Notes under the pieces: model-generated | Databases searched by the model: none | Told to the model about the DNA's origin: nothing | The model's input: the letters and a program-made list of their open reading frames with translations, nothing else | Origin: Pseudofrankia saprophytica | Lineage (GTDB): Bacteria; Actinomycetota; Actinomycetes; Frankiales; Frankiaceae | Assembly (NCBI RefSeq): GCF_000235425.2 | Contig: NZ_KI912266.1 | Location: forward strand, 5,714,166-5,778,165 | DNA length: 64,000 nt | Direction: 5' to 3' | Part shown: in pieces, positions 3,060-63,152 of the stretch | How the letters are laid out: each line of letters starts with the position of its first letter | Numbering within the stretch: position 1 is the first letter of the stretch | Position numbers and translations under genes: made by a program

Positions 3060-4076
3060 TCACCAGAGGCTGGCGATCGGCTCCAGCATCCCGAGATCGG
3101 TCGGCTCGACGATCAGCGTCGTCACCGGCCCGTCACGCCAGGCCGCGAGCTGGTCGGCGATCCGGGGCAGCGGGCCGACAAGCGTCAGGTCGTCGACGAG
3201 CTCGTCCGGAACAGCGGCGCGGGCACCCGCACGGTCGCCACTCAGGTAGAGGTCCTGGATGCGGCTGGCCTCGGCCTCGTACCCGTAGCGGGCGACAAGC
3301 GCGGTATAGAAGTTCTTCGACTTCGAACCCATGCCGCCGATATGCAGCGCCAGCTGCGGGCGCACCCGGTCACGACACGCGTCGAGGTCGTCGCCGACGC
3401 AGGCGACGACCGTCGGCGCCACCTGGAACCCCGCCGGGGCCTTCGCCAACGTGTCTCCCCAGGCCCGGTCCCATCGGGTCGGGCTCCACAGGTAGGGAAG
3501 CAGGCCGTCGGCCTCCTCGACCGCCATCGCCACGTTCTTCGGGCCCAGGGCGGCGATGAGGATCGGCGTGTCAGCGGCCGGTGGCATCGAGGTCCGCAGC
3601 GCCCGTCCCTGCCCGGTCGCGTCCGCACCGGTGTAGGGAATCGAGAAGACCGAGCCCGAGAACTCCAGCCGCTCGGCCCCGGCCAGCGCCCTGCGCAGCA
3701 CGGCCACGTACTCGCGCGTCATCTGGACCGGCGCACGGTAGGGCATGCCATGCCACCCCTCGACGACCTGCGGCCCCGACACCCCCAGCCCGAGCACGAA
3801 ACGCCCCCCGGACAGCTGCTGCAGCGTCAACACGGTCATCGCGGTCGCGGCCGGCGTCCGTGCCGGCATCTGCGCGATGGCCGTGCCCAGCCGGACCCGA
3901 CTGGTGATCGCGGCGACGTAGGCCAACGGCGTGAAGGCGTCACTCCCCCACGCCTCGCCCGTCCACACGGAGCCGTACCCGGACTCCTCGGCTCGCCGCG
4001 CCACCGCGGCAAGCGCGGCCGCGTCCCGAGGGATCCCGGCGAGGCTCAGCCCCAACTCGACCTTCGACACCGGCAT
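3060..4076 (-). CDS. LLM-class flavin-dependent oxidoreductase
   Basis: A 338-residue TIM-barrel protein of the bacterial luciferase-like family. Visible hallmarks are the N-terminal VELGLSLAG strand, SVWTGEAWGSDAFTPL, RVRLGTAIAQMPARTP and the GGRFVLGLGVSGPQVVEGWHG stretch that shapes the cofactor pocket. Related actinobacterial proteins use F420 or FMN to oxidise or monooxygenate small molecules. The ATG at 4076 is chosen because AAGGAGAGA precedes it; an upstream in-frame extension lacks a ribosome site. It follows the phosphotransferase relic and the thiolase on the same strand. Confidence 0.85.
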   Translation of the reverse strand: MPVSKVELGLSLAGIPRDAAALAAVARRAEESGYGSVWTGEAWGSDAFTPLAYVAAITSRVRLGTAIAQMPARTPAATAMTVLTLQQLSGGRFVLGLGVSGPQVVEGWHGMPYRAPVQMTREYVAVLRRALAGAERLEFSGSVFSIPYTGADATGQGRALRTSMPPAADTPILIAALGPKNVAMAVEEADGLLPYLWSPTRWDRAWGDTLAKAPAGFQVAPTVVACVGDDLDACRDRVRPQLALHIGGMGSKSKNFYTALVARYGYEAEASRIQDLYLSGDRAGARAAVPDELVDDLTLVGPLPRIADQLAAWRDGPVTTLIVEPTDLGMLEPIASLW

Positions 4077-4130
4077 TCTCTCCTTTTCCCAGCGACGGCA
4101 TGCAGCGCGAGGCACGCCACGTCCAGAAAC

Positions 4131-4627: not shown

Positions 4628-5839
4628 TCAGTCGAGGCGTTCGAATATCGCCGCGATTCCCTGGCCTCCGCCGATGCAGAGTGTCTCCAGCCCGTACCGG
4701 GCGTCGCGTCGGTGCATCTCGCGGAGCATCGTCGCGAGGATCCGGCCGCCGGTCGCCGCGACGGGGTGTCCCAGGGAGATCCCGGAGCCGTTGACGTTGA
4801 CGCGGTCCCAGTCGGCGTCCGTGAGGCCCCATTCCCGGGTGCAGGCGAGGACCTGGGCGGCGAACGCCTCGTTCAGTTCGATCAGATCCAGGTCGGACAG
4901 TTTCAGCCCCGCACGGTCGAGGGCCTTCGCGGTCGCCGGGACCGGTCCGATCCCCATCCTGGCGGGCGCGACACCGGCGACGGCCCAGCTGACCAGCCGC
5001 GCCAACGGTCGCAGGCCGAGCCGTTGCGCCTCGGCGGGATGCGTCACGACGCAGGCCGCGGCGCCGTCGTTCTGCCCGCTGGCATTGCCCGGTGTCACCG
5101 TGGCGTCCGGGTCGGACGCCCGCAGGATGGGCCGCAGCGCGGCCAGCCTCTCCAGCGTCGTGTCAGCGCGCGGGTGCTCGTCGGCATCCACGATGACGTC
5201 GCCCTTGCGCGTGGCCACCGTCACCGGGATGAGCTCGCCGGCGAACCGGCCGGCCCGCTGGGCGTCGACGGCGCGCCGATGCGAACGCAACGCGAGCTCG
5301 TCCTGCTCCGAACGAGAGATCCCGTATTCCTTGCGAAGGTTCTCGGCAGTCTCGATCATCCCGCCGGGGACCGGGAAACGGCGGCCGCCGGCCGTGGTAC
5401 GCCCCCGCGCCAGCGCGTCGTGCAATGTCACCGCGCCGCCGCGGGCGCCCCAGCGCATCTCGGTGGAGTAGAACGCGGCGTTGCTCATGCTCTCCGCGCC
5501 ACCGGCGATCACGACGTCCGCGACACCCGTCTGGACCATCATCGCCGCCGTGACCACCGCCTGCACCCCCGAACCACACCGGCGGTCCAACTGCAGTCCG
5601 GGAACCTCGATGTCGAGCCCGGCGTCGAGCGCGACCACCCGACCCAGCGCCGGCGCATCCATGGTCGGGTAGCACGAACCGAACAGCACATCATCCACGT
5701 CCGAGCTGCCCAGGCCGGTCCGCTCCAGCAGGCCACGCACGACCGCGGCGCCCAGTTCATGGGCCGCCAGAGGCTTCAGAGCGCCGCCGTAGCCACCCAC
5801 CGCGGTACGCACCGGCTCGCAGATCACCGCTGTCCGCAT
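4628..5839 (-). CDS. Acetyl-CoA C-acyltransferase (thiolase)
   Basis: A 403-residue thiolase, the normal length. All catalytic elements are present: nucleophile Cys88 in DRRCGSGVQ, His358 in GHPVAATGGRI and Cys388 in CIGGGQG, with the NEAFAAQ motif before them. It should cleave a 3-ketoacyl-CoA to acetyl-CoA and a shortened acyl-CoA, the last step of a beta-oxidation round. The ATG at 5837-5839 is preceded by GGAGAGGAC and opens the conserved first strand (MRTAVICEPVRT). It is divergent from a TetR gene, with TYRA element 4 between the two. Confidence 0.93.
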   Translation of the reverse strand: MRTAVICEPVRTAVGGYGGALKPLAAHELGAAVVRGLLERTGLGSSDVDDVLFGSCYPTMDAPALGRVVALDAGLDIEVPGLQLDRRCGSGVQAVVTAAMMVQTGVADVVIAGGAESMSNAAFYSTEMRWGARGGAVTLHDALARGRTTAGGRRFPVPGGMIETAENLRKEYGISRSEQDELALRSHRRAVDAQRAGRFAGELIPVTVATRKGDVIVDADEHPRADTTLERLAALRPILRASDPDATVTPGNASGQNDGAAACVVTHPAEAQRLGLRPLARLVSWAVAGVAPARMGIGPVPATAKALDRAGLKLSDLDLIELNEAFAAQVLACTREWGLTDADWDRVNVNGSGISLGHPVAATGGRILATMLREMHRRDARYGLETLCIGGGQGIAAIFERLD

Positions 5840-6055
5840 GTCCGTCCTCTCCTCGCCAGCTTGTCCTCGCATGTGGGCTCCGGTGGGCGTCAGACACGAC
5901 GCGACGATGCGGCGTCCTGGTCCGATGGACAGGGCACCCGCACGAGGAGCCGTCGCGCGAGACGCGAACACGCGGCCAGCCATCGCACGCCTCGTCCCCA
6001 ACCCACGCGTGGCCACCGGGGTGAACGGCAGGGCGCTGGCCGACCAGCATCGCTG

Positions 6056-6087
6056 CCTCTATGTTGACGTCAACTTCGACATAGAGG
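6056..6087. promoter_or_regulatory. TYRA-NN repeat element 4, extended palindrome
   Basis: This is the most symmetric copy. CCTCTATGTTGA at the left end pairs with TCGACATAGAGG at the right end, so the 32-bp stretch is an imperfect palindrome with TTGA, TCAA, TCGA at 6-bp period in its middle. It lies in the divergent promoter region between the thiolase start (5839) and the TetR start (6282), as expected for an autoregulating repressor. Confidence 0.7.
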
Positions 6088-6281
6088 ACCCTAACGACAA
6101 CCCGTGGGCATTGGCAACGGGTACACCGACCGCCAGCGTGCGCCAGGCAGAGCCTCCAGGCGCGGCCGAGACGCAGTCCGCCAGGCCCGCGCCTCACTAC
6201 GATGAGCAAGATCCTGTCCAGGGACGGCAGGTAACCGACAGCGCGCCGTCAGGGTTCATGTCGTCAGGAGAGGATCCACCC

Positions 6282-7010
6282 GTGTCCGAAGGAACCCCTC
6301 GCGCCGAACAGATCGCGTCCATCCCCAACGCCACCCGCGGCTGGCAGGGCGAAGCCCGAGGGAAGCGACGCGGCACGGGACGCACCAATCGCGGCCGCCA
6401 GACCCGCGATCAGCTCCTCGACGCCGCCCGGACCGTGTTCGAACGCGACGGCTTCCTGCACGCCCGCGTCGCCGACATCTGCGACGAGGCCGGCGTCTCG
6501 CACGGCTCGTTCTACACGTACTTCGTCTCCAAGGAAGAGATCTTCCGGAAGGTCGTCGACTCGGTCGAGCTCGATCTGCTCACCGTCGACCCCGCGCCAG
6601 ACAGCGACCCCGACCCGGTCGCGCGCATCCGCGCCGCCAACGAGCACTACCTGCGCACCTACGCCGCCAACGCCGGCATCATGCGCGTCATCCACCAGGT
6701 CGCGACCATCGACGTCGAGGTCTGGCGCATCCGCTTTCAACGCCAGGACGCCTTCGCCCACGCCATCGAACGGCGCATCCGCCAGATGCAGCAGGACGGC
6801 ATCGCCGACTCCACTGTCGAGCCCTACTACGCCGCCCAGGCCCTCGGTGGGATGGTCGCCTACTTCGCCGAGCTGATGTTCAACTCCCACGACCCCGTCG
6901 CCTTCGACGTGGATACCGCCGTCGACGCCCTCACCCGCATCTGGACCAACGCCCTCGGCATCCGCGATCTCGATCACCCACCGCCCGGCCCCATCGCAGC
7001 GCGGCGGTGA
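6282..7010 (+). CDS. TetR-family transcriptional regulator
   Basis: A 242-residue regulator. After a basic tail (GKRRGTGRTNRGRQTR) come the TetR helices DQLLDAARTVFERDGF and the helix-turn-helix VADICDEAGVSHGSFYTYF; the rest is an alpha-helical ligand-binding domain. The GTG at 6282 is chosen because GGAGAGG lies 8 bases before it; an ATG at 6258 is possible but has no ribosome site. The strongest TYRA palindrome is in its own promoter region, making it the leading candidate for the regulator of this repeat family. That link is inferred, not shown. Confidence 0.88.
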   Translation: MSEGTPRAEQIASIPNATRGWQGEARGKRRGTGRTNRGRQTRDQLLDAARTVFERDGFLHARVADICDEAGVSHGSFYTYFVSKEEIFRKVVDSVELDLLTVDPAPDSDPDPVARIRAANEHYLRTYAANAGIMRVIHQVATIDVEVWRIRFQRQDAFAHAIERRIRQMQQDGIADSTVEPYYAAQALGGMVAYFAELMFNSHDPVAFDVDTAVDALTRIWTNALGIRDLDHPPPGPIAARR

Positions 7011-7165: not shown

Positions 7166-8143
7166 TTACCTCGGGTTGGCGAGCAGCACCGCGGCGTTCA
7201 CGGCCGGGTCGGTGCGTGTCTGACGTACCCAGGTGCCCAGTGCGTGGGTCAGCTCCGCGGAGGTGCCCAGTAGGGCGTCGAGGGCGAGTACCCGGCTGTG
7301 GAAGTGGTGGTGGCTGTGTTCCGCGGTGAAGCCGATGGCGCCCAGTACCTGCAGGGTGCGTTCGCAGACGCGGCGCCCGTTGCGGCCGGCCAGTGCCTTG
7401 AGGACCTCGTCGTGGCGTGGGGGCGTCGCCTCGTCGAGGCGGACCGCGGTGACGGCGGCGCTCTCGAGCGCGACGCAGTCGGTCTGCGCCCAGGCGAGCA
7501 GGTGACGGACCGCCTGGAACATGCCGATGGGCTGGCCGAACTGTTCTCGCGCGCCGGCGTGCGCCACCGCCAGCGCGAGCGTGCCCTCGGCCGCGCCCAG
7601 GATGTCCAGGGCGACGGCCAGACGGCCGAGGAACAGACCTCGGCCCCGGACCGGCGAGGCGTGGCGCTCTTCGACCGTGGGAGTCCAGGCGGACGGGTCC
7701 ATCTCGACCTCGTGGATGGCGAGGCGGCCCGCGAGGTCGAGCGGACGAAGCTCGACCAGGTCCGCGTCGACGACGCCCGCGCCCTGGCCTGGGCGGTCGA
7801 TGAGCAGGGACCTGCCGGCGACGTCGCCGAGGACGACCACTCGCTCACTTCGCCGCGGGGAGTGGCGGTTGACGGTCGCGATGAGCGATCCGGGGGTGTG
7901 CCCGGTGACAGCGAGGAAGGGCTGGGCCATCAGGGCGCCCAGCGCGGCGGACGTCGCCAGTTCCCGGCCCTGGGCGCGGAACAGCGCAAGCGCGGCCATC
8001 CGGCTGTCCCGGTCGGCCAGGTCGGGAAGCAGGTCCCACCAGCCCAGCGCGTCCAACGGGTCGCCGCCCTGGCTGGACGCGCGCAGCGCGAGACACGCCG
8101 CGTCGAGGAACTCCCGGTCGGCCTGTTCCATGGCCATCGTCAT
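7166..8143 (-). CDS. Acyl-CoA dehydrogenase family protein, partner-type subunit
   Basis: A 325-residue acyl-CoA dehydrogenase paralogue, shorter than the usual 380-400. It keeps the C-terminal core (AREQFGQPIGMFQAVRHLLA and LQVLGAIGFTAEHSHHHFH) but has no SEPGSGSD-type FAD-binding segment. Its start overlaps the stop of the upstream dehydrogenase by four bases (ATGA at 8140-8143), implying translational coupling and an obligate partner. This matches the non-flavin-segment subunit of heteromeric FadE pairs known from actinobacterial steroid degradation; that it forms a complex is inference. Confidence 0.85.
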   Translation of the reverse strand: MTMAMEQADREFLDAACLALRASSQGGDPLDALGWWDLLPDLADRDSRMAALALFRAQGRELATSAALGALMAQPFLAVTGHTPGSLIATVNRHSPRRSERVVVLGDVAGRSLLIDRPGQGAGVVDADLVELRPLDLAGRLAIHEVEMDPSAWTPTVEERHASPVRGRGLFLGRLAVALDILGAAEGTLALAVAHAGAREQFGQPIGMFQAVRHLLAWAQTDCVALESAAVTAVRLDEATPPRHDEVLKALAGRNGRRVCERTLQVLGAIGFTAEHSHHHFHSRVLALDALLGTSAELTHALGTWVRQTRTDPAVNAAVLLANPR

Positions 8144-9333
8144 GGCAGCCGCAGGATCTGCTTGGCGATGGTGTCGAGCTGCATCTGCTGGGAACCTCCG
8201 TACACGGTCACGATGCGGGAGAACAGGTAGTCCTGACGACGCGTCGCGGTGTGCGCGTCCTGTGTCCCGACCGCGAGGTCCGGGTCGCTGGCCAGCGCCC
8301 AGTCGTTGACCGACTGCTCGCTCGCGGCCAGCAGGAGCTTCACGAAGGCGGCCTTGGGGCCGAGTGGTGCGCCGGTCGCGTGGGTGTGCAGGCCGAGGTG
8401 GCTGCTGGCTCGGACAGCGGCCAGGTCCAGCAGGGCGTCACCGAGGAGGCTGTCGGTCGCGGGCGTGCCGGCTTCGGCGGTGTCGAGCAGCTGGCGGTAG
8501 AGGAAGTTGTGCCGGAACCAGGCGAAGGTGCCCCGCTCGTGGGCGAGGATGTGCATGGCCACGCGCCAGCCGCCGCCGCGCTCGCCGACGATCCGGTCCG
8601 GCCCGACGGGGACGGCGTCGAAGGTGACCTCGGCGAGTTCGTCGGTGCCGTTCGCCTGCTCGATCGGGCGGACTTCGACGCCCGGTGAGCGCAGGTCCAC
8701 GGCGAACGCCGTGAGGCCCCGATGGCGGGACTCAGGAGTTCCGGTCCGCGCGAGGACCAGGCACCAGGTCGCGTACCGGGCCCAGCTGGTCCAGATCTTG
8801 CGGCCGGTGATGAGGTAGGAGCCGTCGGCGGCGACGGCACGAGTACGGAGGCTGGCGAGGTCCGAGCCCGCCTCCGGCTCGGAGAACCCCTGCGACCAGA
8901 GTGCCTCACCGCGCAGGAACCGTGGCAGCGTCCGCGCCACGAAGCCCTGGTCGCCCATGGCCACCAGGGTCGGAGCCAGGATCTCCAGGTGTTCGAACAG
9001 CGCCATGGCCGGGAGTCCGTGCCGGGCGAGCGCCTCCCACATCGCGGCCCGGTGCAGGATGCCACCGCCCAACCCGCCGACCTGCTCGGGCCACCCGTAG
9101 CGCGCCCAGCCCTCGTCGAACAGGGCGCGCATGAGCTCGGACGTCACCGCGACCCGCTCCGAGTACGCCGCGAGCGGGCGGGCCGCCGCCACCAGCTCGG
9201 CCGGGCGGGAGGCCAGCCACGCTTCGAAGGACGTCCCGTACGCATATACATCGTCACGGAGCGAACCGGTCTCGCTGCTGGCACTTGTCTGCGCCATGGG
9301 CGTCAACGTAGGAACATCAGAATCTCGAAACAC
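8140..9333 (-). CDS. Acyl-CoA dehydrogenase, flavin-segment subunit
   Basis: A protein of up to 397 residues with SEPEAGSDLASLRTR (FAD/substrate-binding), GRKIWTSWARYATW, and a C-terminal VYGGSQQMQLDTIAKQ that replaces the more usual GGTxEIxRN. It is the partner of the coupled 325-residue paralogue downstream. The frame opens with GTG at 9333, only 10 bases after the previous gene's stop; an ATG at 9297 (MAQTSASSE) is an alternative. Neither has a clear ribosome site, so the start is uncertain. Expected role: alpha,beta-dehydrogenation of an acyl-CoA with electron transfer to ETF. Confidence 0.87.
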   Translation of the reverse strand: MFRDSDVPTLTPMAQTSASSETGSLRDDVYAYGTSFEAWLASRPAELVAAARPLAAYSERVAVTSELMRALFDEGWARYGWPEQVGGLGGGILHRAAMWEALARHGLPAMALFEHLEILAPTLVAMGDQGFVARTLPRFLRGEALWSQGFSEPEAGSDLASLRTRAVAADGSYLITGRKIWTSWARYATWCLVLARTGTPESRHRGLTAFAVDLRSPGVEVRPIEQANGTDELAEVTFDAVPVGPDRIVGERGGGWRVAMHILAHERGTFAWFRHNFLYRQLLDTAEAGTPATDSLLGDALLDLAAVRASSHLGLHTHATGAPLGPKAAFVKLLLAASEQSVNDWALASDPDLAVGTQDAHTATRRQDYLFSRIVTVYGGSQQMQLDTIAKQILRLP

Positions 9334-9343
9334 CGGGGACTCG

Positions 9344-10624
9344 TCAGGGCCGCGACGCGGACGAGGGCGCCGTGCGTACCTCGCGGTAGGGAACGTTGCG
9401 GTCGAGAGCGGTCTCTCGTGGCATTCCCAGTACGCGCTCGCTGATGACGTTGCGCGCCATCTCGGTCGTACCGCCGCCGATCGAGCCGATCTGGCGGAGC
9501 AGATAGCTCATGCCTCGGCTTCCGAGCGCGTCTTCGTCGTCGTCGCTGGCCACCGCGGTCGGGCCGGCCAGGTCGAACGCGATGGTCGCCAGGCGGGCCG
9601 AGACGACCCCGTGCATCAGCCGCCCGACCGCCGCGAGCTGGTCCGATCCCTTTCCCGCCGCGGCGACCGCCTGCAGCCGGCGGTCCAGCTCGCGCATCGC
9701 CACGTTCAGGGTGTGTCCCTCGCCGATCAGGTCACGGGCACTCGGATCGGCCAGCCGGCCGGCCCGTTCCGCCAGCCGGACCAGGCTGACGCCGTTCTCG
9801 CCGTAGAAGCTCTCGCCGCCGCCGGTTCCGGCCGGACGGATGGTGTACGGCGACGAGGTGAACGAACGCTCGAAGAACAACCAGCGGGTGACCACGGTCC
9901 AGCCGTCGTCCACGCCGCCGACGCGGGCGCTGTCGGGAACCCGGACGTCGGTCAGGTACTCCTGGCAGAACTCCTTGTTCCCGTCGAGCATCTCGATGCG
10001 TGAGATCTCGATCCCCGGCTGGTGGATCGGCAACAGGAAGACGGTGAGCCCGCGGTGCTTGGGCACGTCCCAGTTGGTCCGGGCCAGGCACAGGCCCCAG
10101 TCCGACCACCACGCCCCGGTCGTCCAGATCTTGGAGCCGTTGATCACCCACTCGTCGCCCTCGCGCACGGCGCTCGTCTTCGCGCCCGCCACGTCCGACC
10201 CCGACCCCGGCTCGGACAGGAACTGCATCCACAGCTCCTCCCCCCGCAGGATCGCCGGGATGTGCTCTCGCTTCTGCTGTTCGGTCCCGAACTCGAGGAT
10301 GACCGCCGCGCACGGCGTCATCGTCGGCACCTGCAGCCGCGCCGGGAACCGGTATCCAGCGATCTCCTCGTTGAACGCCGCGGCATGGGCGGGTGTCAGG
10401 CCCAGCCCGCCGTACTGCCTCGGGAAACAGATGCCGGCGAGGCCTCCATCCCACAGCAGCCGCTGCAGCCGCCGCTCCTCGGCGACCTCGGCCAGCTCCT
10501 CCTCGTCCGGACGGACGGTCATCCGGCCGGTGGCATCCGGCTCGGCGCGCGGCATGTTCCGCGCGAGCCAGCCGCGTGCACGCGACCGGAAGTCCTCGAC
10601 CGACTCGGTCTCCTCGATGCTCAC
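9344..10624 (-). CDS. Acyl-CoA dehydrogenase, flavin-segment subunit
   Basis: A 426-residue acyl-CoA dehydrogenase with FLSEPGSGSDVAGAKTSA, WVINGSKIWTTGAWW and the C-terminal SIGGGTTEMARNVISERVLG. The start is the GTG at 10622-10624, which overlaps the stop of the upstream dehydrogenase in a GTGA arrangement; the longer open frame is ignored for that reason. It forms a coupled pair with the gene at 10621-11772. It should oxidise an acyl-CoA to the enoyl-CoA as the FAD-bearing half of a heteromeric enzyme; the pairing is inferred from gene arrangement and motif distribution. Confidence 0.88.
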   Translation of the reverse strand: MSIEETESVEDFRSRARGWLARNMPRAEPDATGRMTVRPDEEELAEVAEERRLQRLLWDGGLAGICFPRQYGGLGLTPAHAAAFNEEIAGYRFPARLQVPTMTPCAAVILEFGTEQQKREHIPAILRGEELWMQFLSEPGSGSDVAGAKTSAVREGDEWVINGSKIWTTGAWWSDWGLCLARTNWDVPKHRGLTVFLLPIHQPGIEISRIEMLDGNKEFCQEYLTDVRVPDSARVGGVDDGWTVVTRWLFFERSFTSSPYTIRPAGTGGGESFYGENGVSLVRLAERAGRLADPSARDLIGEGHTLNVAMRELDRRLQAVAAAGKGSDQLAAVGRLMHGVVSARLATIAFDLAGPTAVASDDDEDALGSRGMSYLLRQIGSIGGGTTEMARNVISERVLGMPRETALDRNVPYREVRTAPSSASRP

Positions 10625-11772
10625 GCCTCGACCTTTCGTGCGCCGCTCTTCGCTTCGACCAGGGAGGTGACGCGCAGCCGGTGCTCGCGGGGCGTGCCCA
10701 GCAGCGCGCTCGCCACCGCCACCCGGCGCAGGTACAGGTGCAGATCGTGCTCGAACGTCACGCCGATGCCGCCGTGTAGCTGGACGCAGTCCTGGCACAG
10801 CTCCGGGCCGTACTGCCCGATGTACGCCTTCGCCGCGCTGACCAGCTCCGCCGCCCGCTCGTCCTCGGCCCCCACCGCGGCCGCGGCCGCGTCCGCCACC
10901 GCATGGCTGGTCTCCAGCCACATCTTCAGATCCGCGAACCGGTGCTTCAGCGCCTGGTACGAGGCCAACGGCCGGCCGAACGAGTACCGGTCACCCGCCC
11001 AGGCCATCGTCAGCTCGAACGCCCGGTCCATCGCGCCGACCATCTCCGCTGTCTGGATCACCAGGGCCGTCCGCAACTGCCGCTCGACCTCCTCCGCCGC
11101 CGCCCCCGGCTTCCCGACGACGGCCGCCCCCGCAACCCGCACCTCACGGAACCCGACCCGGGCGAACCTGCGAGACGTGTCCAGGGTCTTCAACGGGGTG
11201 ACCGTGACACCGGCGCTGTCGGCCGGCACGAGCAGCTGCGTCAGCCCGTCGCCGGTCCTCGCCGTGACCAGGAACAGCTGTGCCTCGGCGCCGTGCTCGA
11301 CCGGCGCCTTCTCGCCCGAAAGCACCCAGTCCGCACCCGAGGCCACAGCCGTCGCGGTGACCTCACCCAACCGGTCATGAGGGACCGGCTCACTCAGACA
11401 CCACGCCCCGACCGCGTCACCGGCGCAGATCCGGTCCAATGCCTGCTCGGCCGCCTCGCCGCCCGCCCGGGACAGCGCGCCGGCGACCACGTTCGCCCCC
11501 AGCAACGGCCCGGGCGCCGCATGACGCCCGAACTCGTACGCCACCAACGCCAGATCGACCAGGCCCACGCCGCTCACGCTTCCGCCGCCATGCTCCTCGG
11601 CGACCAGCAGCGAGGTCCATCCCAGCTCGACCCCGGCCTTCCAGTACTCCGGTCGGTATCCCCGCTGGTCGTGCCGAAGCTCGCGCAGGACATCCCCGGG
11701 AACGGTGTCCCGCAGGAACCTGCGCGTCGTGCTGACCAGAAGCTCCTGCTCCGCGGCCAGTCCTACCTTCAT
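10621..11772 (-). CDS. Acyl-CoA dehydrogenase, partner-type subunit
   Basis: A 383-residue acyl-CoA dehydrogenase paralogue. In place of the SEPxxGSD loop it has SEPVPHDRLGE, while the C-terminus carries QDCVQLHGGIGVTFEHDLHLY, the signature of the second subunit in FadE pairs. The ATG at 11772 follows GGAGGATCTG, so that start is firm. Four dehydrogenase genes run leftward from here with overlaps or 10-bp gaps down to 7166, clearly one operon. Confidence 0.88.
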   Translation of the reverse strand: MKVGLAAEQELLVSTTRRFLRDTVPGDVLRELRHDQRGYRPEYWKAGVELGWTSLLVAEEHGGGSVSGVGLVDLALVAYEFGRHAAPGPLLGANVVAGALSRAGGEAAEQALDRICAGDAVGAWCLSEPVPHDRLGEVTATAVASGADWVLSGEKAPVEHGAEAQLFLVTARTGDGLTQLLVPADSAGVTVTPLKTLDTSRRFARVGFREVRVAGAAVVGKPGAAAEEVERQLRTALVIQTAEMVGAMDRAFELTMAWAGDRYSFGRPLASYQALKHRFADLKMWLETSHAVADAAAAAVGAEDERAAELVSAAKAYIGQYGPELCQDCVQLHGGIGVTFEHDLHLYLRRVAVASALLGTPREHRLRVTSLVEAKSGARKVEA

Positions 11773-11878
11773 CAGATCCTCCACTCGGCCGGATCCCACC
11801 GGCCCCAGTCCCCGCGCGTACCGCCAAACCGTCTCCGGTCCGGGCCGGCGTGGTGTCGTCCCGCCGTTTCCGGCCGGT

Positions 11879-13063
11879 TCAGCCGAGCGAGATCCCCAGT
11901 GCCTCGAGCGCGTTCTCCCGCGCGATCCGTCGGACGTCCTCGTCCGGCAGGCCAGCGAGCGACTCGGTCACGAAGTCGGCCGGTGCGCGGGTGCCCTCGG
12001 CATGCGGCCAGTCCGAACCGAGCAGTAGCCGGTCGACGCGCACGTCGGCGACGAGCTCGTCGATGTGGTCCTCCCAGAACGGCGTGATCCACACATGTTC
12101 ACCGAAGACCTCCCGCGGGTGGTCGCGGAAGTAGCCCGGGTTGCGGTTGGCGGCGTCGTCGAGGCGGTGCAGCAGCTCCGGAACCCAGGACGCGCCATTC
12201 TCGACGCTCGCGAACCGCAGGGTGGGGAAACGGTCGAAGACCTTGTGGCACACCGCGGCGGCATAGAAGTCGCTGACCGCCCGGCCCTTGGTCACGATGC
12301 CGCGCAGCGGAGAGCGGAACAGCGAGTTCTCCTCGCCGCCCGGCTCCCACATCTGGACCAGGGCGTCGTAGCCGTCGAGCCCGGCGTGCGTCGCCACGGG
12401 AATGCCAGCCTCGGCGGCGAGCCCCCAGAACGGGTCGTAGGCCGGGTCGAAGGGCGAGCGGAAGCCACCGGGCACCGGCACCGGCGCGTTGCGGACGTTC
12501 ACGGCCACGGCCCCGGCCTCGACCACGCGCCTCAGCTCCCCGGTGGCGGCCGCCGGGTCGAGCAGGGGGATGCACGGCACGGCGAACAGCCGGTCCTCGT
12601 AGCGGAAGCCCCAGTCGTCGTCGAGCCACCGGTTGAACGCCTCGAAGACCTTGGCGCAGGCCTCCGGATCGTGCCTGAGCGCGTCCTCGACGCCGACGCC
12701 GAGCGTCGGGAACAGCAGCGTGCCGGCCAGCCCCTGCTCGTCCATCACCTGGAGGCGGGCCTTGCGGTCGCGGTACTCCGGCCGCAGCGGCTCCAGCTCA
12801 CCGAACGCGTCCCTGATCTGCTGCCGGCGCGGGTTACCCCGGTACCAGTCGTAGAGAGCTCCGGGCTTGGCGACGGGATTGAACGTCGGGTTCGCGATGT
12901 AGTTGTTGATCTTTCCATTGATCAGGATCCGCCGCTGCCCGTCCACGCCCGCCCACCGGACGCCCCGGTTGCGCAGCGCCCGGTCCTGGTACCGCGTGAA
13001 CGCGTCTTCCGCTTCGTAGTAGTGGTTGTCGAAGTCGAAGATCCACGGAGCTGCCTGGTTCAT
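11879..13063 (-). CDS. Amidohydrolase_2 (ACMSD-like) family protein
   Basis: A 394-residue TIM-barrel hydrolase/decarboxylase-like protein. The N-terminal metal segment appears as FDFDNHYYEAEDAF, with AGIPVATHAG in the middle and LLLGSDWPHAEGT near the end holding the metal-binding Asp. Family members hydrolyse or decarboxylate cyclic substrates with one bound metal. The first-strand motif is DNHYYE rather than the common DxHxH, a variant shared with the paralogue at 18933. GAGAGG precedes the ATG at 13063. It is divergent from the next dehydrogenase pair, with TYRA element 5 between them. Confidence 0.85.
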   Translation of the reverse strand: MNQAAPWIFDFDNHYYEAEDAFTRYQDRALRNRGVRWAGVDGQRRILINGKINNYIANPTFNPVAKPGALYDWYRGNPRRQQIRDAFGELEPLRPEYRDRKARLQVMDEQGLAGTLLFPTLGVGVEDALRHDPEACAKVFEAFNRWLDDDWGFRYEDRLFAVPCIPLLDPAAATGELRRVVEAGAVAVNVRNAPVPVPGGFRSPFDPAYDPFWGLAAEAGIPVATHAGLDGYDALVQMWEPGGEENSLFRSPLRGIVTKGRAVSDFYAAAVCHKVFDRFPTLRFASVENGASWVPELLHRLDDAANRNPGYFRDHPREVFGEHVWITPFWEDHIDELVADVRVDRLLLGSDWPHAEGTRAPADFVTESLAGLPDEDVRRIARENALEALGISLG

Positions 13064-13133
13064 CCCGGTCGGCCTCTCGTCCACGGTCGATCATCGGGCG
13101 CGCGGCTTGACGCCGGGCCCGGCGTCGCCAGAA

Positions 13134-13158
13134 TATCGAAGTCGATACCAATGTCGAG
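13134..13158. promoter_or_regulatory. TYRA-NN repeat element 5
   Basis: Reads TCGA, TCGA, CCAA, TCGA with two-base spacers; one unit has decayed. It lies in the divergent interval between the leftward amidohydrolase (start 13063) and the rightward dehydrogenase pair, so it could control both directions. Confidence 0.6.
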
Positions 13159-13187
13159 GTTCCTGGGTACCGAAAGTCGAGGCCGCT

Positions 13188-14204
13188 CTGTCCACCACGA
13201 CAGCTCCTGACGAGCTTCACCAGCTACGGGAGGCCGTGCGCGGGACGCTCGGTACCGACCGGCAAGATCTTCCATCCGCCGTCGCCACCGAGTGGCGCCT
13301 GGCGTGGCCGGCGATGGCGGAGCTCGGCGTGCCGGGCCTGTGCGTGCCCGAGCCGCTGGGCGGCTTCGGGCTGCGGGTCGACGCGGCGGTGATGACCGCG
13401 ATGGAACTCGGCGCGGCGCTGCACGCAAGCCCGTATGCGGGGCTGACCGCGAGCGCCCACGCACTGGCCCAGATCACCGACGACCCCGTCGTCGACGAAC
13501 TTCTCGGTGGCATCCTCGCCGGCGAACGGGTCTGCGCGTTCGGACACCTCGGCGCGGACGGCCGGCTCGCCCGGCTGGTCGACGGCTTGCCAGGATCGGA
13601 TGCCCTGCTGCTGGAACAGCCAGGAAACGGCCTGGTGCTGTTCGTCGATCCGAGCAGCTGGACGGTCGACACCGCGCCTCATCACTTCGACGTCTCCAGG
13701 ACCTGCGCCGATGTCACCGTGGACGCGCGCGGCGGCCACCGGCTCACGGCCCCCGGCCACGCCGTGGCCCTGTACGAGCTGCTCCTCGCCGCGGACGCCG
13801 TCGGCTGCGCGCGCCGGATGCTCGACCGCGCCGTCACCTACGCCGGCCAGCGCCAGGCGTTCGGCCGGCCGATCGGCGCCTTCCAGGCGGTACAGCACCG
13901 TCTCGCCGACCACGCGGTACGGGTGCGGGGCATGACACTCGTGGTCCGTGAGGCGGCCAGGTTGTTCGGCGCCGATCCCGTCCGCCTGCGGCGTGCCGCC
14001 GCGTCGGCGTCGCTGAGCGCGAGTTCCGGCGCGCCGCTCATCCTGCACGACCTGCTCCAGCTCACCGGCGCGATCGGCTTCACCTGGGAGTACGGGCTGC
14101 ACTTCTACGACCGCCGAGCCCATCAGGACGCCCGGTTGGCCGCCAACCCCCGGGCGGCCCGGCGGTCGCTCGCGGACCTCGAGGGATGGACCCATGCGCG
14201 CTGA
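13188..14204 (+). CDS. Acyl-CoA dehydrogenase, partner-type subunit (start uncertain)
   Basis: About 338 residues. The C-terminal QLTGAIGFTWEYGLHFYDRR marks it as the subunit type that lacks the SEPxxGSD loop; YAGQRQAFGRPIGAFQAVQHR is also clear. No ATG, GTG or TTG lies close to the expected N-terminus in this frame. A CTG at 13188 (LSTTTAPDELHQLREAV) preceded by GAGG is the best-placed candidate; the in-frame GTG at about 13231 would clip the first helix. It overlaps the next gene by 11 bp, so the two are coupled. Confidence 0.8.
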   Translation: MSTTTAPDELHQLREAVRGTLGTDRQDLPSAVATEWRLAWPAMAELGVPGLCVPEPLGGFGLRVDAAVMTAMELGAALHASPYAGLTASAHALAQITDDPVVDELLGGILAGERVCAFGHLGADGRLARLVDGLPGSDALLLEQPGNGLVLFVDPSSWTVDTAPHHFDVSRTCADVTVDARGGHRLTAPGHAVALYELLLAADAVGCARRMLDRAVTYAGQRQAFGRPIGAFQAVQHRLADHAVRVRGMTLVVREAARLFGADPVRLRRAAASASLSASSGAPLILHDLLQLTGAIGFTWEYGLHFYDRRAHQDARLAANPRAARRSLADLEGWTHAR

Positions 14205-15360
14205 TGTCGAGGCCTACCGGGAACAGGTCCGGTCCTTCATCGCCGAACACGGCGTACCCATGCAGGGAGAAGGCGTTCGGGTCCCCCGGAACCAGGACGA
14301 GGAGAAGGCGATCCGGGCCTGGTTGCGGGCGCTCTACGAGGCCGGGCACCTGGGCGGGGGCTGGCCGCGGGAGTGGGGCGGCCGGGCCGACCACCTCGCC
14401 GCCCACGACCTCGTCCTGATGGAGGAGCTCATCCGCGGCGACGCGTATCGCCCGCTGGACCAGGTGATGTTGGCAAGCCACGCGATCATCGGGTTCGGCT
14501 CCGACACCCAGAAGAGCGAGCTGCTCCCCCGCATCCGCGCCGGCGAGCACATCTGGTGCCAGCTGTTCAGCGAGCCCGGCGCGGGCAGCGACCTGGCGTC
14601 GTTGCGCACCCGCGCCGAACCGGACGGCGAGGAGTTCGTCGTGACCGGCCAGAAGATCTGGAGCACCGACGCGCAATGGGCCGACATGGGGATGCTGCTG
14701 GCCCGCACGGACCCCACGGTCGACCGCCATGCCGGGATCACCGCGTTCGTCGTCCCGATGGACCTTCCCGGCATGGAGATCCGACCCATCCGCGAGATGA
14801 CCGGTTACGCGGAGTTCTGCGAGGTGTTCCTCGACGGGGTGCGCCTCGGCCGCGAGCACGTCCTCGGCGAGGTGAACGGCGGGTGGAAGGTGGTGACGTC
14901 GGGGCTGGCCTCCGAGCGCGCCTTCGTCGGAGCCAACGCCGTACAGCTCGAGCGCATGTTCGCCGACCTGGTCTCGCTCGCCGCGGCCGCCCGGCTGGCC
15001 GACGGCACGACCGCGCTGGAGCACGAGGATGTCCAGGCACGGATCGCGGACGCCCTCACCCGCGTCGAGGAGGTCACGCTCATCGTCCGCGACACCGTCG
15101 ACCGGATACTGGCGGGCGACGAGCACCCCAGCGACGGCCCCGTCGCCAAGCTCGCCTACACCGAGACCAACGTCGCGCTGTGCGACCTCGCGATGGAACT
15201 GATCTCCTCCTCCGTCTCGATCGACGATGCCGACGTCGAGGTCGCGAGACGATGGCACCACAACTACCTCTGGGGGCGAGCCCTGACCATCTCGGGCGGC
15301 GCCTCGGAGATCATGCGAGGGCTCATCGGCCGCCAGCTCCTCGGCCTACCGCGGTCGTGA
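14194..15360 (+). CDS. Acyl-CoA dehydrogenase, flavin-segment subunit
   Basis: A 388-residue acyl-CoA dehydrogenase with LFSEPGAGSDLASLRTRA, FVVTGQKIWSTDAQWADMG and C-terminal SGGASEIMRGLIGRQLLGLP. It starts at the ATG at 14194, inside the end of the preceding partner-type dehydrogenase, and so forms the third adjacent unlike pair in this region. It is followed after about 120 bp by an AMP-dependent CoA ligase on the same strand, which could supply its acyl-CoA substrate. Confidence 0.9.
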   Translation: MRADVEAYREQVRSFIAEHGVPMQGEGVRVPRNQDEEKAIRAWLRALYEAGHLGGGWPREWGGRADHLAAHDLVLMEELIRGDAYRPLDQVMLASHAIIGFGSDTQKSELLPRIRAGEHIWCQLFSEPGAGSDLASLRTRAEPDGEEFVVTGQKIWSTDAQWADMGMLLARTDPTVDRHAGITAFVVPMDLPGMEIRPIREMTGYAEFCEVFLDGVRLGREHVLGEVNGGWKVVTSGLASERAFVGANAVQLERMFADLVSLAAAARLADGTTALEHEDVQARIADALTRVEEVTLIVRDTVDRILAGDEHPSDGPVAKLAYTETNVALCDLAMELISSSVSIDDADVEVARRWHHNYLWGRALTISGGASEIMRGLIGRQLLGLPRS

Positions 15361-15480: not shown

Positions 15481-17094
15481 ATGGACGCCACAACCGGACG
15501 GGCTTCGGCGCCTGTCCCCGACAGCTTTCCTCGCGCGGCCTCCGAACGCGTCCTGCGGCATCGGGCGGACGGTCTCTGGGACAACCGTGTCCTCACGGAT
15601 GGGATCGAGGCCGCGGCCGAACGCCGTCCCCACGCGGCGGCGCTGGTGGATGGTGAAGGGCAGCTCTCCTGGGCGCAGCTGGCCTCGGAGATCGTCCAGG
15701 GGGTCGCCACGCTCGGCACACGAGACATCGGCGCGGGCGACGGCGTCATCCTGATCAGCGGTAACACCAGGCATGGCGTGATCGCCTACCACGCCCTCCT
15801 GCGCATCGGCGCGACGGTCGCGGTGCTCGACCGCCGGTGTGGCGTCGCCGACGTCCGGGACGCGCTCGGCGTCCTGCCGGCACGGCGACGGGTGATCGTT
15901 TCCTCGGAGGAGGCCGGACGTCTGGAGAACGGGCTGGTCGCCGTCGACACCACGCCGTTGGAAATCTTTGGTGGCGAACCGCGTCCAGCAGTGCTTCCGG
16001 CGGCGCCATCGACGCCGAGGGCCGAGCCAGACCGCGACCGCGCTGCGGTGATCCTGTTCAGCTCGGGCACCACTGGACGCCCGAAGGGCGTCGCTCATTC
16101 GCTGAACACGCTGACCGCCGGCGCCAGCAACATGGCCCGCATCACCGCCGCCGACGAGCGCACGGTGGCGTTCCTCGTCAGCCCGCTGACCAGCATCACC
16201 GGCCTGATGCAGGTCCACCTGGCCGCCGACCAGCACGCGACGCTGGCGCTCGAGGACCGCTTCGAGCCGCGGGGAACGCTGCGGAGGATGGCGGCTGTGG
16301 GCGCGACCTTGCTGGGCGGCGCGCCCGTCATCGCCGAACGCCTGCTGCGCGCCGCCAGCGACGGCGCGAACGGCGGCGTCACCCTCCGGACCCTCGCGCT
16401 CGGCGGCGCGATGCTGCCGCGCCCGCTGCTGGAGCTCGCGACCGACGCGTTCGGCATCGAGATCGCCCGGGTCTACGGCTCGTCCGAGGCACCCAACTTC
16501 TCGGGCAGCCTGGCCACGGACGACCGCGAGCGACGGCTGTCCGATGACGGTGCGCTCATGCCTGGCAGCGAGCTGCGGATCGGCTCCACGCGCCATCAGC
16601 GGGAGGGGCTGCTGCGCGGGCCTAGCCTTTTCCTCGGCTACCTCGACGCAGCGGACGACAGTTCCGCCTTCGAAGACGGCTGGTACCGAAGTGGTGACCA
16701 GATCGAAGCCCATCGGGGCAGGCTGACCGTCGTCGGCCGGCTCAAGGAGGTCGTCAACCGCAACGGCCTGAAGATCTCGCTGACCGAGATCGACGCCGCG
16801 CTGGCGGCGCTTCCAGGCGTCGAGGAGTACGCCTCCTTCGCCATGCCCGACCCGGACACCGGCGAGCGACTGGCGGTGGCCGTGCTGGAAGCCGATGACA
16901 CCGCGGTCACCCTCGACGACGTCGTCGCGCACCTGCTCTCGTGGGGAATCGCCAAACGCAAGCTGCCCGAGCAACTGGCCCGCTGGGACGGACCACTCCC
17001 CCGGACCGCCTCCGGAAAGGTCATCCGTTCGCGACTGGTCATGGAGTCCCCGGCCAAGACCAACGACCTGGCTGCCCGCCTACGCCGCGCGTAA
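15481..17094 (+). CDS. AMP-dependent acyl-CoA synthetase/ligase
   Basis: A 537-residue member of the adenylate-forming superfamily. The phosphate-binding loop FSSGTTGRPKG is at about residue 187, YGSSEAPNFSG is the A5 motif, DGWYRSGDQIEA the A7 motif, and the catalytic lysine is in PRTASGKVIRS near the C-terminus. It should activate a carboxylic acid to acyl-AMP and then to the CoA thioester. GGAGG nine bases before the ATG at 15481 fixes the start. The substrate cannot be read. Confidence 0.9.
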   Translation: MDATTGRASAPVPDSFPRAASERVLRHRADGLWDNRVLTDGIEAAAERRPHAAALVDGEGQLSWAQLASEIVQGVATLGTRDIGAGDGVILISGNTRHGVIAYHALLRIGATVAVLDRRCGVADVRDALGVLPARRRVIVSSEEAGRLENGLVAVDTTPLEIFGGEPRPAVLPAAPSTPRAEPDRDRAAVILFSSGTTGRPKGVAHSLNTLTAGASNMARITAADERTVAFLVSPLTSITGLMQVHLAADQHATLALEDRFEPRGTLRRMAAVGATLLGGAPVIAERLLRAASDGANGGVTLRTLALGGAMLPRPLLELATDAFGIEIARVYGSSEAPNFSGSLATDDRERRLSDDGALMPGSELRIGSTRHQREGLLRGPSLFLGYLDAADDSSAFEDGWYRSGDQIEAHRGRLTVVGRLKEVVNRNGLKISLTEIDAALAALPGVEEYASFAMPDPDTGERLAVAVLEADDTAVTLDDVVAHLLSWGIAKRKLPEQLARWDGPLPRTASGKVIRSRLVMESPAKTNDLAARLRRA

Positions 17095-32231: not shown

Positions 32232-33362
32232 CCTGCACTTTCTCTGCTCGGTCAGGCGGCGCGGTGGTACTCGTTGATCACGCCGCTGAGGACCTTATGG
32301 CGGCGGATCGGCCCGTCGAGGGGCGTGACGGTGGCCGGGTCGTGGTTCGGTGGGCGTTGGCCTCGTCCTTGGTGGGGGCGGTGGTCGTTGTAGTGGCGGG
32401 CGTACTGGTCGAGCACGGCCGTGGTGTGGCGTTCTCCGTAGGCGAGGATCTTGTCGGTGCATTCCTCTCGGACTGAGCGGATGAACCGCTCGGCGTAGCA
32501 GTTCGCCCGCGGGGTCCGCGGCGGGGTCCGCACGACCTGGATGCCTTCGGAAGCGAAGACGTCGTCGAACGCCTGCGTGTATTTCGCGTCTCGGTCGCGG
32601 ATCAGGAACCGGAACGCGTCGGTCCGGCCGTCGAGATCCATGGCGAGCTGGCGTGCCTGCTGGGTCACCCAGGCTCCGGTCGGGTGGGCGGTGACGCCGA
32701 GGATGTGGACGCGGCGCGTCTGTATTTCCATCACGAACAGGACGTACAGCCGGCGCAGGACGATCGTGTCGAGGTGGAAGAAGTCGGTGGCCAGCAGTCC
32801 GCTGGCCTGGGCGTGGAGGAAGGTGCGCCAGGTGGTGTCGGCGTGCCGTCGCGGCGCCGAGCCGAGACCCGCGCCAGCGAGGATGCGACGTACCGTGCCG
32901 GTGCCGATCCGGTGGCCCAGGCCGAGGAGTTCTCCCTGGATGCGGCGATGCCCCCAGGTGGGATTGTCCCGAGCGAGGCGGATCACCAGCGTCCGCAGCT
33001 GTTCATCCACCGGCGGACGGCCGACCCGATGCGGGTAGGTCCAGCGCCGACGGACCAGGAGGCGATGCCACGCCAGCAACGTCGCCGGGGTCACCAGCCG
33101 GCACGACCGGACCTCCCCAGGTAGCAGCCGGGCCAGCGCGGCCAGGACCGCGCGATCCGGCCAGGTGAACCGGGGACGTCCGACCTGGCGGCGCAGGACC
33201 GCGACCTCGTGGCGCAGTACCAACAGTTCCGTCGTCCGCGCCGCGTCGCTGCGCGTCAGCAGGACGAGCCAGCCGAACACCCTCACCATGACCAGATACA
33301 CCAAGCCACCACCATGAGCCACGATCATGCGCCATGAGGCCTGCCGGCGAAGTCGCAGGTCA
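32229..33362 (-). mobile_element. Insertion sequence, rve-type (copy 1)
   Basis: The element of about 1.13 kb carries one transposase gene. Reading inward, the left end is GACCTGCACTTTCTCTGC and the right end (reverse complement) GACCTGCGACTTCGCCGG, so imperfect terminal inverted repeats are visible. It interrupts or abuts a Ser/Thr kinase at its left side, while the right flank is unrelated DNA, which suggests a rearrangement after insertion. No clean target-site duplication was recognised. Confidence 0.75.
32252..33328 (-). CDS. IS transposase, integrase core (DDE)
   Basis: A 358-residue transposase. The N-terminal helix region reads [20 protein letters not shown] and [20 protein letters not shown]. 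The DDE core shows Asp in [10 protein letters not shown], Asp in [12 protein letters not shown] and Glu in [14 protein letters not shown]. It appears intact and would cut and join element ends. It belongs to the same family as the genes at 38343 and 62044 but is clearly divergent from them. Confidence 0.9.
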
Positions 33363-47578: not shown

Positions 47579-48805
47579 TCAGGTGCCAAGCCTCGTGGCC
47601 TTGCTACGACGATCGGTCGAGATGATTTGTGTGCTTCCAGGGTAGATGGGACGAGGCAGACCAAGTTCGTGCTGCGCGAGGATGTTGCGGAAGATCTCGA
47701 CGGTACCGCCGTACGTGCTCGTTCCTTGGGCGAAGCGGTGGGCGAAGTCGATCGCCCCCGCGCCGGGGGCCTCTGGTGAGTCGTGCCGCAGGACGCCCAG
47801 CGGGCCGATCATGTCCAGCAGATCGGAGGCCGCGGCAATCAGCACCTCGGATCCCTTGATTCGGCCTTGTGCCCCTGGCGTGCAGATGCCGGCCTCCAGC
47901 TCGGCCGCGATCCGGCCGAGCCGAGCCAGGACCGTCGGGTCGTCGGCTGGGCGGCGACCGTCGAGTCCCGTCGTCGCGGCCCAGTCGACCGCGGCGGCGA
48001 GTGCCGGCTCGAGCGCGCGAAGGAAGTTGCGGCCCACCGAGAAGTCGTCCAAGCTTGCGCGCGCGTCCATCCCGTGCTCTTCGTCCAGCGGCCCGCGAAG
48101 TACCGTCCAGCCGTCGTTGACCCCGCCGAGGCGGTAGCGGTCCGGGACTCGAACGTCGCCAAAGTAGACGATGTTGGTCCGCTCGCCACCGAAGGTGTGG
48201 ACCGCCTGGATCTCGATACCAGGCAGATCGAGCGGGACGAGGAACATCGTCAGGCCCCTGTGCTTCGGCAGGTCCGGGTCGGTGCGGGTGATCGCGAAGG
48301 TGTACTGGCAGTTCTGGGCGCCAGTCGTGAACATCTTCGAGCCGTTGAGGACCCAGTTGTCGCCGTCGCGCACCGCCCGGAGCCGGGCGGCCGCGATGTC
48401 CGAGCCGCCGTCGGGCTCGGTGTAGCCGAGGCAGAACCGCACCGCGCCAGCCGCGATCTTGGGCTTCAGCTCCGCCCTGACGTCGGGCTGGCCGAACCGC
48501 TCCACGGAGCCCCACACCATCCGGGTCGTCGACGCCGTGATGTACGGGACGCCGTGATCCCACTTCTCCAATTCGAGGATCCGGTAGCTGACCGGGTCCA
48601 GGCCCGCGCCGCCCTCGTTGACAGGCCACTCCGGCATGAGCCAGCCGCGGGAGCCGAGGGCCAGGTGGACATCGAGGTTGAAGCCGTTGCCGGTCTCGCG
48701 TTCCTCAGTGAGCGTCTCGTCGGTGACGATCTCGCTGAGGTAGTCGCATACCTCAGCGGCAAAGGCGCGTTGTTCGGCGGTGAGCTCGACGAGTCCGAAA
48801 TCCAT
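47579..48805 (-). CDS. Acyl-CoA dehydrogenase, flavin-segment subunit
   Basis: A 408-residue acyl-CoA dehydrogenase: LGYTEPDGGSDIAAARLRA, WVLNGSKMFTTGAQNCQY and the C-terminal TSTYGGTVEIFRNILAQ. AAGGAG lies before the ATG at 48805. It follows the partner-type dehydrogenase by 17 bp on the same strand, making the fourth unlike pair in this window. It should catalyse alpha,beta-dehydrogenation of an acyl-CoA. Confidence 0.92.
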   Translation of the reverse strand: MDFGLVELTAEQRAFAAEVCDYLSEIVTDETLTEERETGNGFNLDVHLALGSRGWLMPEWPVNEGGAGLDPVSYRILELEKWDHGVPYITASTTRMVWGSVERFGQPDVRAELKPKIAAGAVRFCLGYTEPDGGSDIAAARLRAVRDGDNWVLNGSKMFTTGAQNCQYTFAITRTDPDLPKHRGLTMFLVPLDLPGIEIQAVHTFGGERTNIVYFGDVRVPDRYRLGGVNDGWTVLRGPLDEEHGMDARASLDDFSVGRNFLRALEPALAAAVDWAATTGLDGRRPADDPTVLARLGRIAAELEAGICTPGAQGRIKGSEVLIAAASDLLDMIGPLGVLRHDSPEAPGAGAIDFAHRFAQGTSTYGGTVEIFRNILAQHELGLPRPIYPGSTQIISTDRRSKATRLGT

Positions 48806-48822
48806 CGTGTTCTCCTTTTCGC

Positions 48823-49872
48823 TCAGGCGCGCGTCGCGGCGGCGACGAGGCCGGCACCGATACGCGCCAGGTCCGTGACCGGGTCGCCGGCCACGGCACT
48901 CCATCCCTTCGCCCGCAGGAAGTACAAGCCCACGTCCGCTTCGTCGGTGAAACCGAGCCCGCCCTGGACGTGGACGCTGGTCGTCGTCGCCCGGACGGCC
49001 GCCCGCCGAGCGACGTCGAAGGCCATGAGCGCCAGCTCGGGACGCCGGTCGGGCTCGTGCTGCATCATCCAGCCCGCCTTGTGCACGAGGATGCGAGCTC
49101 CAGTGATGTCGATCGCGGCGTCGACGAGCGGGTAGGCGACCCCCTGCAGCGAACCGATCGGAACGCCGAGCGTCGTACGGGACTTGGCGAACTCGATCCC
49201 AAGTGCCAGCGCCTCGTCAGCCAGGCCGACGAGCGCGGCGGCGGTCAGCAGCTTCCATTCCCGCACCGCCTGCTCGTACATCACGATCGCCTCCGGACCC
49301 GAGGCCAGGGTGATCAGCTCCTCGGCGTCGCTCGCGTCCCACCATGCGAGCGGCGTGCACCCCTGGTTCGAGACGTGCTTGTCCGGGATGGCGGTGCGTG
49401 CGGCGACAAGCTCGTCGCCGACAAGCGCGAGCACGTCGGTCGCGACGGCGGCGTCGGCGACCAGCTGAGGCACACCCTTTGTCGCCGTCATGAGCGCGAC
49501 GGTGAAGACGCGCTCGCCGAGGCGGGCCGCGCCGAGCAGATCGTTGGGGGCATTGGACCGGCCCAGCAGCCGGGTGGCGGTGACATGCCCGGCGAGCGGG
49601 ATCGGCGCGAGACGCCGTCCCTTCTCTTCACTGATCAGAGCCAAGTCGACCAGAGTGGCGTCGTCACCGCCCTGTGAGGCGGGCAGTCCCATTGCCGCGA
49701 CACCCATGTCGAGTAGCCGCTTCCAAAGTCTGGCGTCGAATCCGATCGGCTCGGCGGCCCGCACGACCGCCGTGGTCGACTCCTTGGCGAAGAAGGCAGC
49801 GAAGGCCTCGCGGACGGACCTCTGGTTCTCGTCCAGTGCCGTTTCGCTGTGTCGAAGCTCGTACGTACCCAT
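48823..49872 (-). CDS. Acyl-CoA dehydrogenase, partner-type subunit
   Basis: A 349-residue paralogue without the TEPxGGSD loop. The C-terminus reads TSVHVQGGLGFTDEADVGLYF, where the usual Glu-His of HGGIGFTxEH becomes Glu-Ala. The N-terminal helix ENQRSVREAFAAFFAKES is intact. A GGGAGC site precedes the ATG at 49872. It is the upstream gene of the leftward pair and is preceded by the truncated TetR copy. Confidence 0.88.
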   Translation of the reverse strand: MGTYELRHSETALDENQRSVREAFAAFFAKESTTAVVRAAEPIGFDARLWKRLLDMGVAAMGLPASQGGDDATLVDLALISEEKGRRLAPIPLAGHVTATRLLGRSNAPNDLLGAARLGERVFTVALMTATKGVPQLVADAAVATDVLALVGDELVAARTAIPDKHVSNQGCTPLAWWDASDAEELITLASGPEAIVMYEQAVREWKLLTAAALVGLADEALALGIEFAKSRTTLGVPIGSLQGVAYPLVDAAIDITGARILVHKAGWMMQHEPDRRPELALMAFDVARRAAVRATTTSVHVQGGLGFTDEADVGLYFLRAKGWSAVAGDPVTDLARIGAGLVAAATRA

Positions 49873-58627: not shown

Positions 58628-59003
58628 AAGACCGAACACACCGGACGACTTCCCACACACGAAGCCGCGCGTCACGCTCGTCCACCGGTCGATTCCCTGC
58701 CCAACTGTATGAGGGGTGGATCCGCTGTCCTGGTCGCCAGCTGGGCTGTGGGTCACCGGGCCAATTTCTTCGCCCTGGCCGCCGGGTGTCGTCGGGCGAG
58801 GACCTGCCCTTCCGGCCGCCGTCAGCTGACGGCGTCACCGGGTTCGCCTGCGGCCGACGTCGCGGTACGCGGCTGCGGGCGCCGCGCCGCGATGCGGTGC
58901 GGTCTCGGGTGGGCCGCGGCGGTCCGGGTGTGCCGGCGGCGTGGGCGCGATCTGAATCCTGGTGGCTGCGGTCACCACATCTGCTGAAAGCGGGAGGATG
59001 CAC
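58628..59003. other. Gap with no supported gene
   Basis: About 375 bp of GC-rich sequence after the SDR. Frames crossing it are rich in Arg, Pro and Cys and look non-coding. GGGAGG at the end serves the following gene. Confidence 0.5.

Positions 59004-61966: not shown

Positions 61967-63152
<1,186 letters not shown>

Follow-up and report, generated by a model that had tools for sequence, protein, structure and literature searches.

The question raised by this locus is why acyl-CoA dehydrogenase (ACAD) genes of Pseudofrankia saprophytica stand in unlike neighbouring pairs, and whether each pair encodes one enzyme or two. The stretch of DNA analysed (64,000 nucleotides, called the window here) had been predicted to hold four such pairs, which were read as heteromeric, shared-active-site dehydrogenases of the kind described for actinobacterial steroid catabolism. 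The four complementary ACAD pairs are confirmed. We consider it likely, with a probability of about 0.86, that each pair forms a heteromeric FAD-dependent ACAD, most likely an alpha2beta2 tetramer, with pairs 1-3 probably serving one route and pair 4 another, and with the family being greatly expanded and without a tie to steroids in this organism.

Four unlike pairs of acyl-CoA dehydrogenase genes

Eight ACAD open reading frames (ORFs), forming four unlike neighbouring pairs, were identified in the window by Pfam (Table 1), and tblastn searches with all eight as queries revealed no further ACAD in the window. The predicted spacing was borne out: pair 1 overlaps by 4 nt at 8140-8143 (ATGA), pair 2 by 4 nt at 10621-10624 (GTGA), and pair 3 by 11 nt at 14194-14204, and the genes of pair 4 are separated by a 17-nt gap at 48806-48822. 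The alpha gene precedes the beta gene in pair 1, and the order is beta to alpha in pairs 2, 3, and 4. As predicted, one member of each pair carries the SEP/TEPxxGSD loop and a GGxxE-like end, and the loop is absent from the other member with its GxIGFT, GGIGVT, or GGLGFT segment; the GGxxEI-type end predicted for the loop-bearing members does not hold for alpha-1, which ends in GGSQQM.

Two gene starts required attention. The alpha-2 ORF at 9344-10921 is too long, the real start being at about 10624. The 5' end of beta-3 offers no ATG, GTG, or TTG; position 13188 is a CTG that is kept in orthologues, and is probably a conserved start that gene callers would overlook. The window and 16/16 orthologous loci read all have a CTG at the corresponding site, several of these loci representing one gene twice. 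In five genes (L163/L234, L164/L232, L167, L170/L225, and L173), the stretch from the upstream in-frame stop to the CTG contains no ATG, GTG, or TTG, and the CTG is often preceded by GGAG.

Table 1. ACAD subunits of the window and genes near pairs 1-3, with positions in the window.
Feature	Position	Strand	Description
F420-dependent luciferase-like oxidoreductase	3060..4115	-	TIGR03559, Rv3520c type, above cut-off
Thiolase (acetyl-CoA C-acyltransferase)	4628..6016	-	NF004853 above cut-off; 86-89% identity to copies close to pair 3 in relatives
TetR-type regulator	5838..7010	+	domain lies in the C-terminal half; actual start more internal
beta-1	7166..8143	-	short beta-type ACAD subunit, 325 aa; REQFGQPI, QVLGAIGFT; without SEP loop and Pfam middle domain
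alpha-1	8140..9297	-	SEPEAGSD loop; helix-G Glu (HER); C-terminal end GGSQQM
alpha-2	9344..10624	-	SEPGSGSD; FER base; GGGTTEM
beta-2	10621..11772	-	RYSFGRPL, QLHGGIGV; without GSD loop and base
Amidohydro_2 protein	11879..13084	-	Pfam; same conserved cluster; 77-88% identical beside pair 3 in relatives
beta-3	13188..14204	+	RQAFGRPI, QLTGAIGFT; probable CTG start at 13188
alpha-3	14194..15360	+	SEPGAGSD; SER base; SGGASEI
AMP-forming acyl-CoA ligase	15481..17094	+	profile matches; same conserved cluster; recurs in relatives
alpha-4	47579..48805	-	TEPDGGSD; DEE base (following Arg replaced by His); YGGTVEI
beta-4	48823..49872	-	RTTLGVPI, HVQGGLGFT

Motif columns, pairing, and the proposed active site

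Single columns were read from an alignment that combined 100 ACAD domains from the host genome (9.98 Mb, two contigs) with alpha chains from two known heterotetramers; the column test covered 98 genome domains. The helix-G Glu was present in every alpha domain (37/37) and in no aligned beta domain (0/33), all four window pairs included, and the SEP-loop Asp in 37/37 alpha domains. The RxxFG Arg was present in 33/33 beta domains versus 3/37 alpha domains, these three appearing to be chance alignments, and the Gln or His of QxxGG in 31/33 beta domains and no alpha domain. The complete proteins possessed both loop and Arg (26/26), and most had the base at one of two known places. The window alphas lack the adenine-side FAD motif, and the window betas lack both loop and base and carry RxxFGxPI and QxxGGxGF-like motifs. 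At the sequence level the FAD site is split, with the flavin loop in alpha and the ADP-side Arg/Gln motifs in beta, and since the motif columns of the two are reversed, each half-protein lacks what its neighbour retains. These columns provide a rule for annotating subunits labelled plain 'acyl-CoA dehydrogenase', namely helix-G Glu and GSD loop versus RxxFG and QxxGG.

A Pro that unwinds helix E is a feature of bulky-substrate ACADs of the LCAD/ChsE4 type (PMC11153573); a Pro occurs near this position in alphas 1, 2, and 4, and alpha-3 has one with a slight shift, and as 12/26 complete and 21/33 beta domains carry it too, it is not a discriminating marker of bulky substrates. AlphaFold2 gave a mean pLDDT of 37 and a pTM of 0.26 for a natural beta-2/alpha-2 fusion of Pseudofrankia asymbiotica, and a mean pLDDT of 39 for beta-1, from alignments of six and eight rows, respectively, which are too shallow for usable models.

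From sequence comparison, we infer the quaternary structure, FAD count, and activity of the window pairs as follows. The alpha subunit would provide the acyl-CoA pocket, the sole catalytic base, and the loop that holds FAD at its flavin side. This base would be the helix-G Glu, at the position of isovaleryl-CoA dehydrogenase Glu254 and of ChsE4; by homology, isovaleryl-CoA dehydrogenase and human LCAD have their base at this position (PMC11153573). The beta subunit, which has lost base and loop, would grip FAD at its opposite end with the retained Arg and Gln/Gly-rich motifs, which in ordinary ACADs reach across a subunit interface to FAD. Because alpha and beta hold complementary parts of the FAD site and base, there would be one complete active site per alpha-beta dimer, and two FAD per tetramer versus four in a homotetramer.

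The ACAD domains of the host comprised 37 alphas, 35 betas, and 26 complete domains. This labelling involved manual changes: six domains were reassigned to 'complete', four remote domains were left out, and two short betas were included. An automatic rule applied afterwards gave the same label for 94/96 labelled domains. Tight same-strand ACAD junctions were alpha-beta in 30/34 cases in the host genome (shuffled mean 9.3, maximum 20, p<=1e-5; 100,000 label shuffles), and in 27/27 cases in the complete genome of a relative from the same genus, labelled by the automatic rule (G029; shuffled mean 7.3, p<=1e-5). As the shuffles contain no gene-duplication model, these p-values indicate non-random labels, not a non-random history. 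Beta-beta or complete-complete junctions were absent from the 61 tight junctions in the two genomes.

The host genome also contains eight single-frame units in which alpha and beta are fused. The two halves of one such fusion (L037) correspond to pair 2, its N half being 61% identical to beta-2 and its C half 61% identical to alpha-2, and six more pair-2 fusions are present in other genomes. At another locus (L028, G000:C1:6749024-6753996) two fused ACADs lie in tandem, beta-alpha then alpha-beta, placing both fusion orders side by side. Mirror-tree analysis of 33 alpha/beta pairs gave r=0.646 (permutation maximum 0.28, p=1e-4), and the fusions were clade-matched. Natural alpha-beta fusions are convenient material for structural work. 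The shared-active-site reading of the original prediction is supported by complementary motif loss in the column test, non-random adjacency, natural fusions, and mirror-tree co-variation, all directly observed, together with the nearest solved relatives described below.

Outside the host, the nearest matches are in Parafrankia colletiae (83%) and Frankia strains. Beta-1 adjoins alpha-1 in 14/14 orthologous Frankiaceae loci, beta-2 is fused or adjacent to alpha-2 in 71/74 informative loci, including those of Novosphingobium, an Acidobacteriota bin, and a Candidatus Binatia bin, and beta-3 adjoins alpha-3 in 14/15 orthologous loci with room for it. In three pair-2 relatives, the alpha has no neighbouring beta despite room. 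The pairing of pair 4 is present in the host genome and paralogues only, its paralogous clade containing L013, a beta-alpha pair, and the fusions L022 and L028, and the locus is rarer than the cluster of pairs 1-3.

These distributions bear on whether the betas are strict partners. The heteromers might be real, with the betas acting as interchangeable scaffolds common to several alphas, as suggested by the lack of a tight partner for eight alphas and six betas in the host genome, by alphas and betas located on opposite strands or one gene apart, and by alpha-4, whose closest relative (53%, L236) has no beta nearby. We consider this unlikely, given the mirror-tree correlation, the clade-matched fusions, and the near-universal local pairing in pairs 1-3.

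Gene neighbourhood and the steroid question

Pairs 1-3 are accompanied by genes for a thiolase, a CoA ligase, an F420 oxidoreductase, and an amidohydrolase, and this cluster recurs, rearranged, in Frankiaceae relatives; in one relative (L225) all three pairs lie within about 8-10 kb. Recurrence of the set in relatives supports a single route for pairs 1-3, which are probably part of one CoA-dependent, beta-oxidation-like catabolic route, in which the ligase, dehydrogenase pairs, thiolase, F420 oxidoreductase, and amidohydrolase may act on a CoA-activated substrate. A literature search for a cluster of amidohydrolase, luciferase-like, and ACAD genes found nothing relevant. Pair 4 belongs to a second cluster with a P450, a ferredoxin reductase, an aldehyde dehydrogenase, SDRs, and a hydratase, and would serve a separate route; insertion sequences, a sigma factor, and other unrelated genes lie between the clusters. 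The four pairs had been taken to imply one multi-step degradation of a bulky acyl chain. One pathway could be true of pairs 1-3 at most, since relatives carry these together, and does not extend to pair 4, about 32 kb away; since such pairs are common in the genome, their presence alone does not indicate a bulky substrate.

The window also shows signs of rearrangement. Transposases of IS481/IS3 type at 32252-33328, 37920-39440, and 62031-63110 interrupt the region between and after both clusters. In the ORF at 58962-59693, which resembles a deletion remnant, the initial third of a class III CoA-transferase is followed by the final part of an aldo/keto reductase; an intact CoA-transferase adjoins the alpha-4 relative in L236. 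The ORF at 1104-1652 encodes a C-terminal fragment of an AMP-forming ligase, the N-terminal part being missing.

The link to steroid catabolism in the original prediction was not upheld. Pairs acting on the side chain or rings of steroids such as cholesterol or bile acids would have the architecture seen here; in addition, the cluster contains an F420 oxidoreductase of the Rv3520c family, whose namesake sits in the mycobacterial cholesterol region, and one ligase resembles the BaiB and FadD families, below cut-off. By contrast, the window proteins scored 46-147 bits against the IpdE2 model (NF050027; cut-off 450) and at best 130-186 bits against the PimC/PimD models (TIGR03204/TIGR03203; cut-offs 624-653), and identity to ChsE4 was about 30%, compared with 59% for an orthologue elsewhere in the genome (L015). 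The solved bile-acid structures 6wy8 and 6wy9 differ at a glycine that alpha-2 alone possesses (Y, G, S, and Y in alphas 1-4). The steroid-ring markers covered were IpdE2 and HsaC; in the host genome no IpdE2 was found above cut-off and no HsaC-type dioxygenase was found (best 46 of 366 bits). No MaoC/DUF35 hydratase-aldolase was present among the window ORFs scanned with Pfam. On this evidence, a role of the pairs in steroid degradation is quite improbable.

Least probable are two ordinary homomeric dehydrogenases per locus, tandem duplicates acting independently: the members of a pair do come from one superfamily, and some neighbouring genes in bacteria are plain duplicates, but the alphas would be homomers without inter-subunit FAD motifs and the betas homomers without base and loop, the trees co-vary, fusions exist, and tandem duplication of homomers is contradicted by the motif data and the junction counts.

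Returning to the heteromeric reading, the roughly thirty pairs, the near-equal numbers of alpha and beta, and the failure to find two steroid-ring markers in this genome suggest that the heteromeric architecture is a general one. We lean towards the view that split-site heteromers are the commonest ACAD architecture in this Frankiaceae branch (about 29-34 versus 26 complete) and serve several non-steroid routes, in which case a heteromeric ACAD would be unusable as a steroid marker. Most descriptions of heteromeric dehydrogenases come from steroid degraders; what may interest specialists is the scale, with complete enzymes not outnumbering split-site ones in this genome, and the dissociation from steroid markers.

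Comparison with known heteromeric dehydrogenases

The heteromeric ACAD architecture is already known, and the window pairs add members to it. For all four alphas, the top matches among solved structures are chains of known heterotetramers, the best relatives of alpha-1 being the alpha chains 6wy8_B and 4x28_A. The top solved matches of beta-1 and beta-4 are also chains of known heterotetramers (4x28_D and 6wy8_A for beta-4), and those of beta-2 and beta-3 are ordinary homomeric ACADs.

The IpdE1-IpdE2 and PimC-PimD enzymes are likewise two-gene dehydrogenases and provide the best-matching NCBIfam models of several window subunits, but the window scores fall far under the curated cut-offs. Tcur3481-Tcur3483 of Thermomonospora curvata (PDB 6wy8/6wy9) is the best solved match of all four alphas; unlike what we propose for the window pairs, it is a bile-acid enzyme, and the identity is 30-34%. 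ChsE4-ChsE5 of Mycobacterium tuberculosis (FadE26-FadE27, PDB 4x28) resembles the window pairs in being encoded by separate neighbouring genes, with an alpha that carries the catalytic Glu and the loop and a beta that makes the ADP-side FAD contacts, and differs in its substrate, the C8 side chain of steroids; the window alphas are about 30% identical to it over full-length matches. The true ChsE4-ChsE5 orthologue of the host genome, L015 (59% identity), lies elsewhere, as divergent genes at G000:C1:4275451-4278074, in a genome where neither the IpdE2 nor the HsaC marker was found. CasC of Rhodococcus jostii RHA1 is a fused bile-acid dehydrogenase with an N-terminal FAD-binding half and a C-terminal half containing the base (PMC8399759). 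It is a single chain with a steroid substrate, whereas the window pairs are separate genes, and it shares with the fusions of the host genome the same order of halves and the same division of labour (PMC8399759).
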